A stretch of 64,000 nucleotides of DNA from Natronorubrum halalkaliphilum (GTDB taxonomy: Archaea; Halobacteriota; Halobacteria; Halobacteriales; Natrialbaceae). Both the position numbers and the translations under genes were made by a program. Below, piece after piece: positions 39,414 through 55,997 of the stretch. Position 1 is the stretch's first letter, and each line of letters begins with the position of its first letter. Under the pieces are notes generated by a model. The model saw only the letters and a program-made list of their open reading frames with translations, did no database searches and was not told the DNA's origin. The stretch is from assembly GCF_009834785.1 (NCBI RefSeq), contig NZ_WUYX01000069.1, forward strand, positions 207,697 to 271,696, written 5' to 3'.

Positions 39414-39529
39414 AGACCTGTCACTCGGACTACGCGGACGACAATAAGTTCGCAGGGGGCGAGCGAGGAAACGACGGACGGCACGAGCACCCCAGGATTA
39501 ACCCGCTACGTCTGGGAGAGAGCCGTGCC

Positions 39530-40903
39530 ATGCAGGACGCCCACGCCCAACTGGAAGCGGACGTCACCGCCCTCGAGGAATTGCCTGTGTTCGTCGCCTA
39601 CAACGCGAACGTCGACGCGATCGTTCGGGTCGACGAGGAACTCGAGTCGTTTCTCGAGCGCCCGTCAGATCCCGGCTCCGAACAGCTCTCGAGCCCGTTG
39701 ACCTCGAAACGAGAACTCGCGGCGGCGATCGCACACACGATGGCTGCCGGCCGAGGTGACGAGATCGCGATGACCGACGCGTTCGCCGCGACGCTCGAGG
39801 CGGAGTTAGCGCCCGACAACCAGCAGATGGGCGGGCAAGCAGGGATCATGACGAACCTGCTCACTGCGCTTGGAACCGCGCCGATCACCTACACGTACCT
39901 GATCTCTGACCGACAGCTTTCGATGTTCGAACACCCCGAGGAGGTGCGGTATCCGACCGTCGAGGACGGTCAGGTGAGCTATACGCCTCTCACCGAGGCC
40001 GTCAACACGGACCGAACGAAGATCAACTGGGTGTTCGAATTCAGAGAGGGGGACGAACTGTTCGGCGTAACGGCGACCGAAGGCACCCGGTTCATCGCCG
40101 CCTCGAGACCGCCGGAGTTCGACCTCTCCGCGGGAGCACTCGACGAGGCGATCGATCAGGTCGGCGAAGCCGTCGACGGCGCGCTCCTGGCAGGCTATCA
40201 CAATCTTACGCCCGATCACGTCGAAGAGGGGTACGAGGAGACTCACAAACACGCACGCGACGTCCTCCGTCGACTCCGGTCGGGGAACGACGTCGACGTC
40301 CATGTCGAGTACGCCGTCACCCACGACGACGACCTCAGGGAGAGTATGTACGAGTGGATCCTGCCGGAGGCGAACGTCGTCGGCGCCGATACCCACGAGT
40401 TGACGATGCTGCACGACGACGCGGGTATCGACGTCGTCGAGGAGCCGCCGTCGGAAGCGACGCCGTTCGAACCCGAGGAGATCCTCGACCACTACCGGAT
40501 GCTCGAGGCGGTTCGCGAGGAACTCGGCGTCGACTGTCTGCAGTTACACGCGATGGAGTACCACCTCGCCGTGATGGAGTCGTACCACTCGCCGGAGGCG
40601 CTCCGACGGGGCCTCGAGTTTTCCGCCGTCAACGCCGCGACGAAGGCGGCGCTGGGACACATCTCGGAACCTGAAGACCTCGAGACCGGTCTCGAGTACG
40701 AGCCCTCGGAGATGGGGCGAGAGGCGATCGAACTGCTCGCGGAGCACCTCGGCAAGACGGCCGAGGAGGGCGTACTCGCGACGCCCTCGGCCGCCGCCTG
40801 TCCGAATCGCGTCGTCGACGAGCCGGCGGGGACGGTCGGCATCGGCGACATCGTCTCCTCCTCGAGTTTCGTTCTGGAACTCGCCGTCGCGACCGATCGG
40901 TAG
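39530..40903 (+). CDS. ADP-dependent glucokinase/phosphofructokinase family kinase
   Basis: The 457-residue sugar kinase belongs to the ribokinase-fold ADP-dependent family first found in Thermococcales. Family features are VFVAYNANVDAIVRVD near the N-terminus, QMGGQAGIMTNLL and the catalytic GIGD motif with Asp440 in TVGIGDIVSSSSF. It would phosphorylate glucose or fructose 6-phosphate with ADP, giving AMP. The sequence alone does not tell which sugar it uses. Its place beside aldolase, GAPDH and trehalose-synthase-type genes fits either glycolysis or trehalose recycling. Confidence 0.86.
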   Translation: MQDAHAQLEADVTALEELPVFVAYNANVDAIVRVDEELESFLERPSDPGSEQLSSPLTSKRELAAAIAHTMAAGRGDEIAMTDAFAATLEAELAPDNQQMGGQAGIMTNLLTALGTAPITYTYLISDRQLSMFEHPEEVRYPTVEDGQVSYTPLTEAVNTDRTKINWVFEFREGDELFGVTATEGTRFIAASRPPEFDLSAGALDEAIDQVGEAVDGALLAGYHNLTPDHVEEGYEETHKHARDVLRRLRSGNDVDVHVEYAVTHDDDLRESMYEWILPEANVVGADTHELTMLHDDAGIDVVEEPPSEATPFEPEEILDHYRMLEAVREELGVDCLQLHAMEYHLAVMESYHSPEALRRGLEFSAVNAATKAALGHISEPEDLETGLEYEPSEMGREAIELLAEHLGKTAEEGVLATPSAAACPNRVVDEPAGTVGIGDIVSSSSFVLELAVATDR

Positions 40904-40941
40904 TACGTCACGGGACCGACGGTGATCTCCGGCGAGCGTCG

Positions 40942-41835
40942 TCACGGCGACTCGGCGCTAACCGGCACGCAAAGCACCGGCACCTCGGCCTGGCGGACGA
41001 CGTTTTCGGTCACGCTCCCGAGGAACCACTGGCCGATCCCCGTCCGGCCGTGGGTCCCCATGACGATCAGATCGACGTCATGTTCGGTCGCGTACGTCAT
41101 AATTACGGACGCAGGAGCACCGCTCGCGATCGACCCGGAAATCGAGACACCGGCGTCTCTGGCGCGGTCCCGTACCGTCTCGATCGCCTCCTCTCCCCGG
41201 CGCTCGAGCGCGTCGTGGATCTGGTCGGGCTCCTGGGCCCCGGTGAAGGGGCTTGGATCGACCGAATACAGCGTGTGTACCATCGATTCCAGTCGGGCCG
41301 CCAGTTCGATCCCCCACTCCATCGCGATCGTTGCACCGTCGCTACCGTCGGTCGGCAACAACAGGTGCTCGAACGCGACGTCACCGATCGCGGATTCGTC
41401 GGCATTCGGCGGAACCGCGAGGACGGGGGTCCGTGCCGTTCGAAGGACGTTCTCGGTCACGCTGCCGAGGAGCACCCTGTCGAGGCCCGTTCGGCCTTTC
41501 GTCCCCATGATGATAACGTCGATCTCGCGTCGGCTGGCGTACTCTCTGATCGACTGGAACGGAGTGCCCGTCCTGGTCGCCGTCGTAACGGCTATTTCCT
41601 CGTCGTGGTCCGCGGCTAGCCGGGCGATCTCCTCGACCGCGTTCTCGGCGCGCTCCTCGAGCGGCGGGAACTCGAGTTCGTCGAACTCCCCCGCACGGAG
41701 TCGGGATTCGACGACCGATAGCACGTGGACGTCGGCGTCGATCCGCGACGCGAGGGCGATCCCGCGTTTGGCTCCGGCGAGCGCCCCGTCGCTGCCGTCG
41801 GTCGGTATCAGTATCGCTTCGATGAACCGGCTCAT
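40942..41835 (-). CDS. tandem-domain universal stress protein
   Basis: This is a 297-residue protein with two UspA domains. Each starts with a block such as ILIPTDGSDGALAGAK or LLLPTDGSDGATIAME and ends with a nucleotide-binding signature: MGTKGRTGLDRVLLGSVTENV in the first, MGTHGRTGIGQWFLGSVTENVV in the second. Both have the G-x2-G-x9-GS pattern expected for ATP binding. It lies between the ADP-dependent kinase and the TreT-like gene and converges with the kinase. Confidence 0.93.
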   Translation of the reverse strand: MSRFIEAILIPTDGSDGALAGAKRGIALASRIDADVHVLSVVESRLRAGEFDELEFPPLEERAENAVEEIARLAADHDEEIAVTTATRTGTPFQSIREYASRREIDVIIMGTKGRTGLDRVLLGSVTENVLRTARTPVLAVPPNADESAIGDVAFEHLLLPTDGSDGATIAMEWGIELAARLESMVHTLYSVDPSPFTGAQEPDQIHDALERRGEEAIETVRDRARDAGVSISGSIASGAPASVIMTYATEHDVDLIVMGTHGRTGIGQWFLGSVTENVVRQAEVPVLCVPVSAESP

Positions 41836-41934
41836 GGGTGGGTCCCGGATTGCTTCACCGCCTCGGCGGATAACTGTGTGGGGGTGGTCGGCTGGCAGGA
41901 TCCGACTGAGCCGAAACCGGCGAACGGGCCCGTA

Positions 41935-43176
41935 TCAAGGCTCAGGCGCCAGTTCGGTGACGAAAATCTCGAGGAGGTCGACGACCTGTCGGGGTAGCAA
42001 GAACCGTTCCCGGACGTGTTCCCGGGCGTTGTCGCCGAACGATCGACGACGCTCGTCGTCCTCGAGCAGGTCGACGATCCGGTCGCCGGTACTTGGCGCG
42101 TCGTCCGGGTCGACGAGGTACCCGTTCCGGCCGTCCTCGACCTGCAGCGGAATCCCACCGACCGTCGAGCCGACGACCGGCGTGCGCTTCCAGAGTGCCT
42201 CCGAGACGACGAGACCGAACCCCTCGCGCAGGGACTTCTGGACGACGACGTCTGACAGCCGCTGGAGGGCGTTTATCGTCGCGTCCGGAAGATCGGTCAG
42301 GACGTGGACGTCCGGATCGTCGACAGCCTCGTCGGCGACCTGCTCGTACAGCTCCAGGCCCTCCGGATCGTCGCCGGCCATCCCGCCGGCCAGCGCCAGC
42401 TGTAGCTCCGGCACCTCCTCCTTGGCGGTTCGGTACGCCTTGAGCGTCCCGAACTGGTCTTTCCACGGGTCGAAGCGGGACACCTGCGTCACCACCGGCG
42501 CGTCGAACGAGAGCGGATCCAGGTGGTCCCGTTCGGTCGCCAGTTCTCCCTCATCGAGCGATCGGTTCTTTTCCGTCACCGGATCGATCGACGGGTAGAC
42601 GATGCTCGTCGCCGGGGCGTCGACCGCCGCGTACGCCGAGCGGCTGAAGATCGCGTGATCGATCGGATCGGTGTACGCCGAGACGAACGCGAGATAGTCG
42701 TCGACCGGGTCGGTGAGATCGACGTGGCACCGCCAGACGATCGGTGCGTCCGGTAGCCGTTCGTCGAGTCGCTCGAGCATGCCGAGCGTCTGGGGATCGT
42801 GAGCCAGCACGAGGTCGTACTCGTCTTCGATCTCGGCCGCGTTGGCCTCGGTCACCTCGCGATAGGTCGCTCTCATCTCCTCGGTCAGCGGCTCGGCGTT
42901 TCCCTGGAGCCCGTTGTGCATCGCCTTCGTGACTTCGAAGAAGTCATCGTCGGCGTCCATGACGAGCCAGTCGGTTTCGACGCCGAGGTCGTTGCAGAGC
43001 GGCACGATCGATCGGAGCAACTCCGCGACTCCGCCGCCGGTCGCGGTCGAGTTGAGATGGAGGATCCGGGCGTCCGCGAGCGCGTCGGCGAGCGAGCGGA
43101 GGCGCTCGAGACGGTCGCGTTCCGTCACGGCGGCGTAGGCCTCGATCGATCGGTTCGAAAGAGAGGGGGGATGCAT
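41935..43176 (-). CDS. TreT-like trehalose glycosyltransferring synthase (GT4)
   Basis: The 413-residue GT-B fold enzyme has the features of TreT, the trehalose glycosyltransferring synthase: ARILHLNSTATGGGVAELLRSIVPL, WRCHVDLTDP, VTQVSRFDPWKDQFG and the donor-binding SLREGFGLVVSEALWKRTPVVGSTVGGIP. TreT makes trehalose from NDP-glucose and glucose, and can run in reverse. A sugar nucleotidyltransferase gene that could supply the donor lies 2.5 kb away, and a possible ADP-glucokinase is next door. Trehalose would be a compatible solute. Confidence 0.86.
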   Translation of the reverse strand: MHPPSLSNRSIEAYAAVTERDRLERLRSLADALADARILHLNSTATGGGVAELLRSIVPLCNDLGVETDWLVMDADDDFFEVTKAMHNGLQGNAEPLTEEMRATYREVTEANAAEIEDEYDLVLAHDPQTLGMLERLDERLPDAPIVWRCHVDLTDPVDDYLAFVSAYTDPIDHAIFSRSAYAAVDAPATSIVYPSIDPVTEKNRSLDEGELATERDHLDPLSFDAPVVTQVSRFDPWKDQFGTLKAYRTAKEEVPELQLALAGGMAGDDPEGLELYEQVADEAVDDPDVHVLTDLPDATINALQRLSDVVVQKSLREGFGLVVSEALWKRTPVVGSTVGGIPLQVEDGRNGYLVDPDDAPSTGDRIVDLLEDDERRRSFGDNAREHVRERFLLPRQVVDLLEIFVTELAPEP

Positions 43177-43314
43177 CGTCTACGCGCTACGACCACGACG
43201 ACGCTCGTATCAGTTGGGGGTTGATCCGGTCGAAAACGAATTGGAAGCCTTGTATCTCCCGATATCCGACGGCTCGGCCAACAAATTTACCCGCCGAAGG
43301 TGGAGTCCACCCCC

Positions 43315-44385
43315 ATGAACGGGAACACGAACGACGGCTCCGAAACCGACGAAACGCTTCGCATCGGACTCAACGGCTTCGGACGGGTCGGACGGTGTCT
43401 CCTCCGTGCGTCGCTGACCCACGACGACGTCGACATCGTGGCGATCAACGACGTGATGGACGACGACGACATGGAGTATCTGCTCACGTACGACTCGGTC
43501 CACGGCCGGCTCGACGGCGTCTCTCGCCGCGGCGACACGCTCTTCGTGGACGACCAGGAGTTCCGGTTGTTCTCCGAGCGCGAGCCGTCGGAACTCCCGT
43601 GGGACGAACTGGACGTCGACGTCGCCTTCGAAGCGACGGGCTTGTTCCGGACTCGCGACGAGGCTGGCCAGCATCTCGAGGCCGGCGCGAACAAGGTGAT
43701 CATCTCGGCGCCGCCGAAGGGCGAACCGGAGGTCCCGATGTTCGTCTACGGCGTCAGCCACCAGGAGTACGACGGCGCCGACGTCCTCTCGAATGCTTCC
43801 TGTACGACGAACTCGGTCGCGCCGGTTCTCCAGGTTCTCAACGAGGATTTCGAGATCGTCTCCGGATTCCTGACGACCGTCCACGCCTACACCGGCAGTC
43901 AGGGGCTCGTGGACGGACCCATGGAGAAGCGACGGCGCGGCCGCGCCGCCGCCGAGAACATCGTTCCGACGACGACCGGTGCCGCCGGTTCGACCAGCGA
44001 CGTGCTCCCCGAATTCGAGGGCAAACTCGAGGGGATGGCGATGCGGGTCCCGGTCCCGAACGGGTCGGTCACCGACATCACTGTCAACATCGAGGAGGAC
44101 ATCGAGCGCGTGGAGGTAATAGACGCAATCCAGGCAGCAGCCGACGACAGGCTGGCCGGCGTTCTCGGCTACACCGACGACGAAATCGTCTCGCGGGACA
44201 TCGTCGGGCTGCCGTTCGCCTCGTACGTCGACCTCGAGTCGCTGATGGTCGCGGCCAGAGACACGGTAAAAGTGCTGGCCTGGTACGACAACGAGTACGG
44301 CTTCTCGAATCAGATGATTAAACTCGCGACACACGTCGCGAGCGAATCGGAGAGCATCGACGCCGGCCGAACCGTCGCCAACTGA
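43315..44385 (+). CDS. gap: glyceraldehyde-3-phosphate dehydrogenase, type I
   Basis: This 356-residue phosphorylating GAPDH is of the bacterial type rather than the archaeal type II. It has IGLNGFGRVGRCLLRA for NAD(P) binding, the catalytic Cys163 in SNASCTTN, VHAYTGSQGLVDGP and the C-terminal WYDNEYGFSNQMI. It interconverts glyceraldehyde 3-phosphate and 1,3-bisphosphoglycerate. The ATG at 43315 is preferred; an upstream GTG (43300) would add five residues. Phosphoglycerate kinase follows 34 bp later in the same direction. Confidence 0.95.
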   Translation: MNGNTNDGSETDETLRIGLNGFGRVGRCLLRASLTHDDVDIVAINDVMDDDDMEYLLTYDSVHGRLDGVSRRGDTLFVDDQEFRLFSEREPSELPWDELDVDVAFEATGLFRTRDEAGQHLEAGANKVIISAPPKGEPEVPMFVYGVSHQEYDGADVLSNASCTTNSVAPVLQVLNEDFEIVSGFLTTVHAYTGSQGLVDGPMEKRRRGRAAAENIVPTTTGAAGSTSDVLPEFEGKLEGMAMRVPVPNGSVTDITVNIEEDIERVEVIDAIQAAADDRLAGVLGYTDDEIVSRDIVGLPFASYVDLESLMVAARDTVKVLAWYDNEYGFSNQMIKLATHVASESESIDAGRTVAN

Positions 44386-44419
44386 CGGGCGGAAACCCCG
44401 TACGCACTAATCACCAACC

Positions 44420-45631
44420 ATGACTACGTTTCAGACGATCGATGATCTCGAGTCCGGTCGACGGCTGCTGGTCCGCATCGACGTCAACGCGGCCGTCGAG
44501 GACGGAACCGTCCAGGACGATAGGCGGTTCGCCCGCCACGCCGAGACGATCCGGGAACTGCTCGCGGACGATCATGCGGTCGCCCTGCTGGCCCACCAGG
44601 GACGGCCCGGCCGCGAGACGTTCGTCTCGCTCGAGGGCCACGCCGACATTCTCGCCGACCACCTCGATCACCCCGTCGCATTCGTCGCCGACACCTGCGG
44701 GGACGAGGCGCTCGCGGCGATCGATGACCTCGAGTTGGGCGATGTCATCCTTCTCGAGAACGTCCGCATGTGCGACGGCGAGTTACCCGAGGAGGAACCC
44801 GACGTCAAAGCCGAGACGGACCTCGTCCGAACCCTCGCGCGGGAGTTCGACGCCTACATCGGCGACGCCTACCCCGCCGCCCACCGATCACACGCCTCGA
44901 TTGTCGGTTTTCCGCAGGTCATGGACGCCTACGCAGGCCGGGTGATGGAACAGGAGTACACGGCGATCAGGGCCGTCCGCGAACGGACGTTCGACGGCCC
45001 CGTTACGATGGTGCTGGGAGGCACGAAGGCCGAGGATACCATCCCGATCCTCGAACGGCTCGACGACACCGTCGATCGGTTCTGTCTCGGCGGCGTCGTC
45101 GGCGAACTCTTCCTCCGGGCCGGCGGCCACGACGTGGGCTACGACGTTGCCGGGACCGCACTCTTCGATCATCAGTGGGAGGACCATCGGACCGATCTCG
45201 AGCGCATCCTCGAGACCAGCCGTGACCGGCTGTTCCTCCCGACTGATCTCGCCTACGAGGATGACGCCGGTAAGCGCACAGAGGTGTCGCTGGAGGGGAC
45301 GAGCAAGGAACGGCCGTTCCTCGACGTCGGCTCCGAGACGGCCGACCGGTACGCTGATCTCGCCGCTGATTCCGCCGCGGTGTTCGTCAAAGGCGCTCTC
45401 GGCGTCTTCGAGGACGACAGGTTTGCCGATGGAACCGTCACTGTGTTGTCGGCGATCGCAGACACCGACTGTTTCTCGGTCATCGGCGGCGGCGACACCG
45501 CCCGGGTGATCGAACTGTACGAGTTCGACGAGGACGACTTCTCACAGGTCTCGATCGCCGGCGGCGCGTACGTCCGCGCGCTCGCCGGCGAATCCCTGGT
45601 CGGGATCGGGGCACTCGCCGACAACCCGTGA
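44420..45631 (+). CDS. pgk: phosphoglycerate kinase
   Basis: This 403-residue enzyme transfers phosphate between 1,3-bisphosphoglycerate and ADP. It has the N-terminal substrate site LVRIDVNAAVEDGTV, the AHQGRPGR and HRSHASIVGFP blocks, the central TMVLGGTKAEDTIP nucleotide region and the C-terminal SVIGGGDTARVIEL. It sits directly after gap and immediately before a sugar nucleotidyltransferase gene (6 bp), suggesting one operon. Confidence 0.95.
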   Translation: MTTFQTIDDLESGRRLLVRIDVNAAVEDGTVQDDRRFARHAETIRELLADDHAVALLAHQGRPGRETFVSLEGHADILADHLDHPVAFVADTCGDEALAAIDDLELGDVILLENVRMCDGELPEEEPDVKAETDLVRTLAREFDAYIGDAYPAAHRSHASIVGFPQVMDAYAGRVMEQEYTAIRAVRERTFDGPVTMVLGGTKAEDTIPILERLDDTVDRFCLGGVVGELFLRAGGHDVGYDVAGTALFDHQWEDHRTDLERILETSRDRLFLPTDLAYEDDAGKRTEVSLEGTSKERPFLDVGSETADRYADLAADSAAVFVKGALGVFEDDRFADGTVTVLSAIADTDCFSVIGGGDTARVIELYEFDEDDFSQVSIAGGAYVRALAGESLVGIGALADNP

Positions 45632-52247: not shown

Positions 52248-52269
52248 CACCCCTCGTTCAGACTGAAAC
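52248..52269 (-). repeat. origin recognition box-like repeat (distal copy)
   Basis: CACCCCTCGTTCAGACTGAA reads on the minus strand as a near copy of the repeat family at the origin, differing in one base of the TTCAGA part. It lies 3 kb away from the other copies, between the 3' ends of gdhA and the beta-propeller gene. It may be a distal ORB or a relic. Confidence 0.6.
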
Positions 52270-52414: not shown

Positions 52415-53554
52415 TCAAGTCGCATCGTGATGTCCGAGTGTCCCGTGTTCGATCCGCGAGTCCTCGCTCGAGCCACTGACACTCGCATCCAGTGCGTACA
52501 CGTTGTGGTTATAGCTCCCGACAAAGAGGGTATCATCTACCACTGTCGGCGATGATTCGATCTTCCCAAGGTTTCTGGCGACCCACCGTTCCGAGCCGTC
52601 TTGCAGATCCAGTGCGTGGATTTGACCGCCGAGGCTACCGACGATGGCTGTGCTATCGACTACCGTCGGCGACGACCAGACTCCGGCATCGGTCTCAACC
52701 GTCCACATCTCCGCCCCCGTAGCCGCATCCAGCGCGTACAGGGTCGTATCCTCGGGCTCACGATACTCTCCGCTGCCGATGAAAACGGTCCCATCGGCCA
52801 CCGTCGGCGACGACCAGATACCGCCTCCGGTCTCAACCGTCCAGATTTCCACCCCCGTAGCCGCATCCAAGGCGTAGACAGTCCGGTCCCAGCTTCCGAC
52901 GAAGACCGTCCCGTCTACCACCGTGGGCGACGACTGGACCCAGCTACCGGTTTCGAACGCCCAGCGTTCGGAGCCCTCTTCGGCAGTTACCGCGTAGACG
53001 TGGTTGTCGTGACTCCCGACGTAGACGGTACCGTCAACTACCACGGGCGACGATCGGACCCAGCTACCGGTTTCGAACGCCCAGCGTTCGGAGCCGTCTT
53101 CGGCGTTTAACGCGTACACACAGTGGTCAGTGCCGCCGACGAAGACGGTCCCATTGGCCACTGCCGGCGACGAATAGAACGACCAACTGCCGATATCGAA
53201 CGCCCACCGTTCCGTGCCGTCCTCGACATCCAGTGCGTACAGTTTGTCGCTCCCGACGAAGACGGTGTCATCTACGACTCTCGGAGACGCCCAGATCTGA
53301 TCGCCGGTGTCGAACGTCCACTGCTCCTCGCCATCGTTCGCGTTCAGTGCGTACAGCGACCGATCCGAACTGCCCACGAAGACCGTTCCATCCACTACTG
53401 TCGGTGATGATCTGATCCGAAAGTCGGTTCCGAACCACCAGCGTTTGCGATTCGCTTCGGATGAGCGTAAACACCCACCGAGAGCCGCGGAAACACCAAT
53501 TCCGAGCGTAGTCAGGTAGGCTCGGCGAGAGGAGGTCGGTCTTTTCGGTCGCAC
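52415..53554 (-). CDS. PQQ/BamB-like beta-propeller lipoprotein
   Basis: The 379-residue protein starts at a GTG with a twin-arginine signal SSRRAYLTTLG and a lipobox GGCL, so it should be a surface lipoprotein. The mature part consists of eight blades of about 40 residues, each of the form SSPTVVDGTVFVGS followed by LYALNAEDGSERWAFETG, the PQQ-binding-like (BamB) propeller. No cofactor-binding residues can be assigned, and PQQ dependence is doubtful. A TATA box on the minus strand (53576-53583) supports the start, leaderless. Confidence 0.88.
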   Translation of the reverse strand: MRPKRPTSSRRAYLTTLGIGVSAALGGCLRSSEANRKRWWFGTDFRIRSSPTVVDGTVFVGSSDRSLYALNANDGEEQWTFDTGDQIWASPRVVDDTVFVGSDKLYALDVEDGTERWAFDIGSWSFYSSPAVANGTVFVGGTDHCVYALNAEDGSERWAFETGSWVRSSPVVVDGTVYVGSHDNHVYAVTAEEGSERWAFETGSWVQSSPTVVDGTVFVGSWDRTVYALDAATGVEIWTVETGGGIWSSPTVADGTVFIGSGEYREPEDTTLYALDAATGAEMWTVETDAGVWSSPTVVDSTAIVGSLGGQIHALDLQDGSERWVARNLGKIESSPTVVDDTLFVGSYNHNVYALDASVSGSSEDSRIEHGTLGHHDAT

Positions 53555-53781: not shown

Positions 53782-55065
53782 TCAGGAAAACGAGGAGAGA
53801 TCGACATCGCGGTCTCTCGGTTGGCTGCCGGAGTCGGCGAGTTGGTCGTACGTCGGAAGCTCCTCGAGCGAACTGTCCCGACGAACCGCTTTGATGATGT
53901 GTTTCGGATCGGTGACGAGTCGGTGCAGGAGGTAACTCCCCTGGGAACGGCCGCCGCCGGTCTTTTCGGATTCGATAACCCCGAGGAAGGCCTGCTCTTT
54001 GAGCTGTCGATAGAGCCCGTTTTCGGTGATCGGATCGGTCGCGACCATCTCGCAGATACCGACGTACCGTTCGTAGATCTCCCGCGTCTTGTGGGTCTCG
54101 CGGTCGCCGGTGATGATCCGACTCGCCAGCGCGTACAGGGCGAGTTTCGCGTGGACGGTCGCGCCGCTCGTGAGTTCTTCGATCCGGTTGATCTCGGCGA
54201 CCTCCTGGGCCTGCTGGATGTGGCTTTCGGAGACGTGTTCCGACCCCGCGCGGCGAGCGAGTTCGCCGGCTTCCTTGAGGATCTCGATCGCCTTGCGGGC
54301 GTCGCCGTGTTTCTTGGCGGCAAGCGCCGCACAGAGCTCGATCGTTCCGTTCTCGAGGACGTCCCGCTGGAACGCATCTTCGCGGTTGCGCATGATCTCC
54401 CGAAGCTGTGAGGCGTCGTAGGGGTGAAAGAACAGCTCTCGGTGACCGAAGCTGCTGTCGATGCGCTCGTCGAGGGTCTCCCGATACTTGACCTTGTTAC
54501 TGATGCCGATGACGCCGATGTAGGCGTCCGTCTTCTGGGCTTCGCGGGCTCGCGAAAGCTGCATCAGGATGTTGCTGTTATCCAGCTTGTCGATCTCGTC
54601 TAAAATGACGATGATCGCGTCGAAACACTCCTCGAGAATCCCCCAGATGTGCTGGTAGTACTCCATCGTTCCGACACCGCGGAGCGGGATATTCCCCTGA
54701 AAGGCCGTCTGTTCTTTCAGGCTCAGCGCCAACTGACGCGTCGCACGGGTCTCCGTGTTCGCTTCGGAGCAGTCGACGTAGAGCACCCCGCAGTCGATAT
54801 CGTTGCTTTTCGCGGCGGTCTGTGCTCGCGTGGCGACGTGTCGAGAGATGAGGCTCTTTCCGGTGCCGGTCTTGCCGTAGATCATCACGTTGTTCGGCGG
54901 ATCACCTCGCGTGATCGCACCGACTTCGGCGGCGACGGATTCGATCTCGTCGTCCCGACCGACGATTCGGTCTTCGTCGGGGACGTGACCGACGTGGAGG
55001 AGTTCCTTCCGGTTAAAAATGGGGTCGTGGGATTGGAAGAGCGGGTCCCCAGCCTGTTCAGCCAT
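53782..55065 (-). CDS. orc1: Orc1/Cdc6 replication initiator
   Basis: This 427-residue archaeal origin-recognition/loader protein has Walker A IYGKTGTGKSLISRHV, Walker B VILDEIDKLD, sensor 1 IGISNKVKYRE and a C-terminal winged-helix domain. The sequence looks like the conserved haloarchaeal Orc1-type (cdc6A) protein linked to the main chromosomal origin. A TATA box at 55089-55096 is 24-31 nt upstream of the ATG at 55065, which points to a leaderless message and favours this start over the in-frame ATG at 55089. The origin repeats begin 170 bp upstream. Confidence 0.95.
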   Translation of the reverse strand: MAEQAGDPLFQSHDPIFNRKELLHVGHVPDEDRIVGRDDEIESVAAEVGAITRGDPPNNVMIYGKTGTGKSLISRHVATRAQTAAKSNDIDCGVLYVDCSEANTETRATRQLALSLKEQTAFQGNIPLRGVGTMEYYQHIWGILEECFDAIIVILDEIDKLDNSNILMQLSRAREAQKTDAYIGVIGISNKVKYRETLDERIDSSFGHRELFFHPYDASQLREIMRNREDAFQRDVLENGTIELCAALAAKKHGDARKAIEILKEAGELARRAGSEHVSESHIQQAQEVAEINRIEELTSGATVHAKLALYALASRIITGDRETHKTREIYERYVGICEMVATDPITENGLYRQLKEQAFLGVIESEKTGGGRSQGSYLLHRLVTDPKHIIKAVRRDSSLEELPTYDQLADSGSQPRDRDVDLSSFS

Positions 55066-55088
55066 GTCTCCGTTCTCGAAGACGCACA

Positions 55089-55096
55089 TAATAAAT
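55089..55096 (-). promoter_or_regulatory. TATA box of orc1
   Basis: TTTATTAT on the minus strand is 24-31 nt upstream of the ATG at 55065. The sequence up to the start is too short for a leader, so transcription should begin at or next to the start codon. Confidence 0.6.
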
Positions 55097-55234
55097 CTAT
55101 GGAAGGTAGTTCAGACTGATAATAGCTGGATAGACGTTTTGATACGCAGTGTTTCGGCTGACTCTTCTCGAGTTCGATCTCTGCCGCATGCAGACTGTAC
55201 CGTCGCTTCGGCGGTGATCGGTGGCCGACCCCCG

Positions 55235-55255
55235 CACCCCTCGTTCAGAGTGAAA
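55235..55255 (-). repeat. origin recognition box 1 (ORB)
   Basis: CACCCCTCGTTCAGAGTGAA on the plus strand is the reverse complement of the ORB form at 55602 and carries the G-string on the minus strand. It is the left member of the inverted ORB pair around the AT-rich region. Confidence 0.85.
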
Positions 55256-55414
55256 GGCTGGTCACGGGTGGGAGGGGTGATGCAGGGGAGAGTCGGATTC
55301 CAGAAGAGACCACTCGGATTCGAGTAGAGCGGTGGCAGCGGCGACATTGCGGAAAAGCGATCCGAGGAACTGAATTGATCACCGAGCGACGTGGCTCGTG
55401 CTGTATCCGTAAGT

Positions 55415-55500
55415 TCAGTATCCTTTCTTTCTTCTTTCTAGAACCACTAGCCTAGTATAGTAGTATTATATTTTACGGAACAAGCAACAAATTCCTGCTA
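55415..55500. other. AT-rich duplex unwinding element candidate
   Basis: The segment includes the pyrimidine run TCCTTTCTTTCTTCTTTCTA and an AT block TAGTATTATATTTTAC, the most AT-rich stretch in the surrounding 10 kb. It lies between the two inverted ORBs, as expected of the site where the helix first opens. Confidence 0.7.
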
Positions 55501-55601
55501 GTGCCGCTGCTACACCACAAAAGCCGAGTGTTTGACAGTTTATCAAGACAAGTGCGGAACAGCATGCCCTCGCTCGAGAGGGCTCCCATACCTTCTCCCG
55601 T

Positions 55602-55622
55602 TTTCACTCTGAACGAGGGGTG
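55602..55622 (+). repeat. origin recognition box 2 (ORB)
   Basis: TTTCACTCTGAACGAGGGGT with a following G is identical in its core to the copies at 55977 and, in reverse, 55235. It is the right member of the inverted pair around the AT-rich region. Confidence 0.85.
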
Positions 55623-55751
55623 TGGGTATCGTCGTTCCGGCAACGAGTGCTTCCCGCAGGAGGTATCGTCCGATTCGCTCCGGTCGACTCTCACTCCGCT
55701 GTCAGAGTGACCGACACTCAACCGCTGAGATCGCGGGGCCTCACCGCCCCG

Positions 55752-55771
55752 TTTCACTCTGAACGACGGGT
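55752..55771 (+). repeat. origin recognition box 3 (one-base variant)
   Basis: TTTCACTCTGAACGACGGGT differs from the other copies by one base in the G-string (CGACGGG for CGAGGGG). It may bind the initiator more weakly. Confidence 0.75.
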
Positions 55772-55976
55772 CTCTCCGCTCACGTATTCACGAATTGGTC
55801 GAAGGTGGTCGTACCGATCGCAGTCGGCGACGCGAGGATCGGAGCAAACAGATTTAGCCCAATATTGCTGATTGCCGCCCGCATAACCGCGCTATTCCCG
55901 TCCGATCAATTTCGGAGACCCATGCCAGCACAGCCACACTGATCCCGCCGGACCAGCCAACGCGTATCGAACCACT

Positions 55977-55997
55977 TTTCACTCTGAACGAGGGGTG
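55977..55997 (+). repeat. origin recognition box 4 (ORB)
   Basis: TTTCACTCTGAACGAGGGGT with a following G is a perfect copy, 76 bp before the start of the citE-like gene. Binding of the initiator here could influence that gene's promoter. Confidence 0.83.

Follow-up and report, generated by a model that had tools for sequence, protein, structure and literature searches.

Haloarchaeal replication origins adjacent to orc/cdc6 genes, as described by Wu et al. 2012 (PMC3528665), combine an Orc gene, inverted boxes with a G-string and an AT-rich element, with one box type per Orc family and with boxes that in some cases flank orc. Every active origin of Haloarcula hispanica needs its own Cdc6; oriC1 requires inverted boxes with a G-string, and oriC2 is restrained by boxes that lie downstream (PMC3936714). 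In Haloferax mediterranei, active origins lie in a conserved gene context and a dormant one in a variable context (PMC4595724). Here, we describe a locus in the 4.56-Mb draft genome (72 contigs) of Natronorubrum halalkaliphilum that is very probably a genuine and fairly ordinary haloarchaeal DNA-replication start site beside its initiator gene. The window, meaning the whole 64,000-nt stretch analysed, covers positions 207697–271696 of contig C38.

All of the elements named by Wu et al. 2012 have their counterpart here; oriCa and most oriCb origins in that study show little conserved context, whereas the context of the present locus is conserved across the family. Like oriC2-cdc6E with oriC2D of Haloarcula hispanica (PMC3936714), the locus is a candidate chromosomal origin other than oriC1 that has a cognate Cdc6 and further boxes beyond the gene, but oriC2D has eleven downstream boxes and the origin predicted here usually one. 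That such related origins depend on their own Cdc6 and on inverted G-string boxes (PMC3936714) is one reason to read the locus as an origin. It also shares with haloarchaeal oriC1 the facing G-string boxes upstream of orc1 and a box near the orc1 start, although box, Orc and contig are all different.

Boxes, AT-rich element and initiator gene

An initial annotation, made from the letters of the window, had placed four repeat copies upstream of orc1, and these were recovered as 21-bp boxes (TTTCACTCTGAACGAGGGGTG) across 55235–55997, starting at 55235, 55602, 55752 and 55977. It had overlooked a fifth box, which lies beyond the gene, and a half-box at the promoter. The features, in window coordinates, are as follows.

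55977–55997, plus strand: ORB4, the outermost box, adjoining a citE-like gene (repeat alignment, relatives)
55752–55772, plus strand: ORB3, with the variant G-string GACGGGTC, which also occurs in other genomes
55602–55622, plus strand: ORB2, facing ORB1 (repeat alignment, relatives)
55414–55493, no strand: AT-rich element and candidate unwinding site, with the highest AT content of any 80 bp in the window
55235–55255, minus strand: ORB1, the orc-proximal box (repeat alignment, relatives)
55184–55199, minus strand: a second, weaker half-box-like block, TACAGTCTGCATGCGG, within 2 mismatches in 29 of 46 relatives
55109–55122, minus strand: half-box TTATCAGTCTGAAC, the box core without the G-string, a short way upstream of the orc TATA
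55088–55095, minus strand: TATA-like element TTTATTAT, conserved as TTTTATTA/TTTATAA in aligned upstream regions
53782–55065, minus strand: orc1/cdc6, 427 aa, with ATG at 55063–55065; a longer ORF begins at 55089
52248–52268, minus strand: ORB5, downstream box TTTCAGTCTGAACGAGGGGTG, beyond orc, with the end of gdhB about 70 bp away

The motif CACTCTGAACGAGGGG is exact at 55237–55252 (−), 55605–55620 (+) and 55980–55995 (+). At 55755–55770 (+) it has one mismatch and reads GACGGG, the divergent G-string noted at the outset; this variant is seen again in other genomes, so ORB3 looks like a retained, perhaps weaker, site. Shuffled windows gave a mean of 0.92 matches to CACTCTGAACGAGGGG at ≤3 mismatches, and 0 of 100 shuffles reached the five seen. 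Across the 4.56-Mb genome only seven sites match TTTCACTCTGAACGANGGGT at ≤3 mismatches; five of them cluster in this locus, which argues for an origin, and all four zero-mismatch sites fall within 763 bp. A literature search with the box sequence gave nothing relevant among the matches listed, and an Rfam search over 52–57 kb gave no match.

ORB1 and ORB2 face each other across an AT-rich element, as the initial annotation had it, and this element is 69% AT against a window mean of 36%; its conserved core (55453–55478) is recognisable, at ≤2 mismatches, in 16 of 46 relatives. The inverted boxes end in a G-string and, by co-occurrence, are specific to this Orc. Boxes that face each other around the most AT-rich 80 bp again favour an origin, at which Orc1/Cdc6 would bind ORB1 and ORB2, ORB3 and ORB4 would offer it additional sites, and the element between ORB1 and ORB2 would open for MCM to be loaded. 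The boxes could also be operators for orc, citE and gdhB, with Orc acting as a transcription regulator and no origin present, given that they lie near the orc and citE starts and near the gdhB end and that a half-box sits at the orc promoter. We regard this as very improbable, since facing G-string boxes around a strongly AT-rich element are the layout of an origin and since citE and gdhB stay together in genomes without orc.

The Orc gene adjoining the boxes is full-length (TIGR02928, 388.7 bits), with an AAA+ domain with Cdc6 lid and a winged helix; among solved structures it best matches Sulfolobus Cdc6-1 and the Aeropyrum Cdc6 homolog. A simple Nei-Gojobori count gives a dN/dS of 0.05–0.10 for comparisons with its eleven closest equal-length relatives; one further pair was left out because a frame offset gave a nonsense value. 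Judged from these sequence comparisons, the protein is intact and under purifying selection, which further supports the origin reading. A leaderless haloarchaeal transcript is expected to have its TATA about 22 nt from the ATG. The ATG at 55063–55065 is therefore favoured over the longer ORF, given that the TATA-like TTTATTAT lies 22 nt upstream, as it does in relatives, and that the N. bangense ortholog is 1284 bp in the NCBI annotation. No relatives of this Orc were found in the viral contigs searched.

Distribution in the Natrialbaceae and on plasmids

We oriented and scanned 50 loci (49 related loci and the window). In nearly all Natrialbaceae loci, one box about 170–340 bp upstream of orc faces two to four boxes further up, and the recurrence of the same array beside the ortholog adds to the case for an origin. 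At least one box lies within 700 nt downstream of the orc end in 47 of the 50 loci (≤5 mismatches). In the window this downstream box is displaced by a 1.14-kb beta-propeller (PQQ repeat) gene at 52415–53554, which separates orc from ORB5 and is absent between orc and gdhB in N. bangense. Facing array, downstream box and promoter half-box thus all recur in relatives within the family. The order gdh2-citE-origin-orc-gdhB is found, whole or in part, in most named relatives, and many genera share this conserved gene context; two genomes, G001 and G006, showed none of the tested neighbour genes adjoining Orc. A 23-kb contig of G006 (C3) was considered as a mini-replicon and rejected, as nothing indicates more than a fragment.

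Among 125 Natrialbaceae genomes, boxes (≤2 mismatches) are present in 60 of 60 with an Orc ortholog (≥83% identity; one of the 60 Orcs was seen partially) and in 10 of 65 without (Fisher p 1.5e-25, uncorrected for shared ancestry). This co-occurrence speaks for an origin, and so do the exceptions: three of the ten (G016, G017 and G094) have relic boxes, in that orc is absent and two or three sites resembling the box lie between gdhB and citE, and five (G055, G056, G070, G071 and G122) carry an Orc that is 53–55% identical and has plasmid relatives with nearly the same box. The remaining two, G004 and G118, have one match each. In G094, which has no Orc ortholog, two nearly perfect facing boxes lie 150 bp apart between gdhB and citE (L216 1247–1417).

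The gdhB neighbourhood was examined in 17 Orc-poor genomes, hand-picked rather than random. In eight Orc-less genomes gdhB directly adjoins citE; three of these retain the relic boxes there, and five (G084, G049, G085, G003 and G004) have no box between the two genes. Because relic boxes remain, our preferred reading is that the orc-plus-origin unit was lost from the gdhB-citE site, the middle as if deleted. That several sister genomes live without the locus implies that it is dispensable in the family.

A plasmid orc1/cdc6 family (for example on Natrinema pJ7-1 and the Halorubrum trapanicum plasmid) has an Orc 53–55% identical to the present one, nearly the same box (TTTCACTCTGGACGAGGGGTG) and a half-box at the same promoter position, but its core is CTCTGGAC against CTCTGAAC here, and box spacing and gene context differ. 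On a Halobellus ramosii plasmid, five tandem boxes spaced 53–54 bp apart lie directly downstream of a 73% identical Orc (L203 9344–9577), a cluster that resembles oriC2D; Halogeometricum pallidum has three boxes spaced 58 bp. The Natrinema J7 ARS vectors (PMC5350488) could not be assigned to this origin and are not used as evidence, their primers having no convincing match in the Natrinema loci.

In the N. bangense assembly (G102; contamination score 13%), the chromosome (C1) and an 827-kb 'plasmid' (C2) are identical in all stretches compared (L062/L063, L210/L212), covering 13.3 kb and a further 19.9 kb around the locus. This is either a recent large duplication or an assembly problem, and the plasmid copy was therefore discarded as evidence of plasmid replication. 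Elsewhere in the window, the pgk/gap region (39489–45604) matches large 'plasmids' of Natribaculum (637–862 kb) and N. bangense; core metabolic genes therefore lie on some of the replicons labelled as plasmids.

A half-box at the orc promoter

Each of the 47 Natrialbaceae loci has the motif TCAGTCTG at position −53 or −54 relative to the ATG, where it abuts the BRE/TATA region on its upstream side. It matches the core of the boxes, TCA[C/G]TCTGA, which has G at position 6 in 16 of the 49 proximal boxes and in 25 of the 56 downstream ones. The half-box tracks the box of each Orc family, reading CTCTGA here and CTCTGG in the plasmid sister family; six loci of that family have TTACACTCTGG or TTACACTCTTG at the half-box position, like their own boxes, and Halobellus ramosii has TTTCACTTTGAACGA. 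At oriC1, both in this genome and in a relative with a complete genome (G101), a full box lies just upstream of the orc1 start.

A half-box that changes with each family's box suggests, at the level of sequence, that Orc regulates its own gene through it. The half-box is oriented so that the side on which the G-string is absent would lie over the BRE, and the simpler guess is therefore repression: by occupying its own promoter, Orc would keep its own level down. The box beyond orc may in turn soak up surplus Orc, as proposed for oriC2D of Haloarcula hispanica. We give about even odds to a wider proposal, in which a box core placed against the orc promoter (here without its G-string, fixed in position across the family and tracking each family's box core) lets haloarchaeal initiators control their own genes, while a conserved downstream box titrates Orc. 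The bacterial parallel, cited in PMC3936714, is the presence of DnaA boxes in the promoter of dnaA. The half-box could instead belong to a conserved promoter or be the site of another regulator, as the conserved block extends into the BRE/TATA. We hold this explanation to be plausible but somewhat doubtful: the half-box matches the invariant box core, the plasmid sister family has its own core there (TTACACTCTGG with box TTTCACTCTGG), and a full box stands just before the orc1 start at oriC1.

A probable secondary origin, distinct from oriC1

An oriC1-type box, TTCCACTCGAAACGAAGGGGT, lies on contig C60 beside a different Orc, and is conserved in the five relatives searched. The C60 locus is taken as oriC1 on the strength of its box type and this conservation. 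Neither that box type nor the oriC1 Orc is present at the locus described here, which is thus not oriC1, the main, universally conserved origin. On the 3.35-Mb chromosome of G101, the oriC1 Orc is at 1.257 Mb and the present Orc at 2.483 Mb. The Orc1 on C60 (L209 8469–10304, minus strand) carries an insert of about 150 aa inside its AAA+ domain, and in its relatives that profile position holds a gap whose length varies; an intein was rejected, the insert being an acidic, Ser/Asp-rich stretch.

The initial annotation had also called for a GC-skew turning point near 55.4 kb, and this expectation failed. The cumulative G−C count of the 292-kb contig climbs until about 243 kb and thereafter stays level or declines a little, with no minimum at 263 kb; in G101, sampled at about one-third density, the minimum is near oriC1 and nothing marked is seen at 2.483 Mb. 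Cumulative GC and AT skew were weak in both and show no turn here. A turning point is supportive of an origin rather than defining, and its lack is weak evidence against a strong constitutive one. The placement of the window at a replication origin with its initiator is thus supported in part: by its orc/cdc6-adjacent anatomy and Orc-box co-occurrence, but not by the skew test, and the main oriC1 lies elsewhere.

Taken together, we assign a probability of roughly 0.7 to a secondary chromosomal origin that is of the orc/cdc6-adjacent type known from haloarchaea and has an initiator of its own, a reading weakened by the missing skew turn and by the sister genomes that live without the locus. It may be active, weak or dormant. 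If dormant or vestigial, Orc would bind the boxes while initiation normally took place at oriC1 or another orc locus, the present origin firing only when others fail. The missing skew turn would fit this, as would the presence in this genome of several further orc loci that have their own box arrays and the sister genomes that lost orc and kept relic boxes, and dormant origins are established in Haloferax mediterranei (PMC4595724). We nevertheless consider dormancy unlikely, because the Orc is under purifying selection and the context is conserved in many genera, whereas the dormant origin of Haloferax mediterranei lies in a variable one (PMC4595724). By analogy with that species, the conserved context makes an active secondary origin the more likely state.

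An Orc-box pair is thus defined at a locus common to much of one haloarchaeal family. Sister genomes without the locus, relic boxes remaining in some of them, and a plasmid family whose box is nearly identical make three questions testable: what purpose an extra chromosomal origin serves, by what route such an origin disappears, and whether the gene of an archaeal initiator is controlled by its own product.
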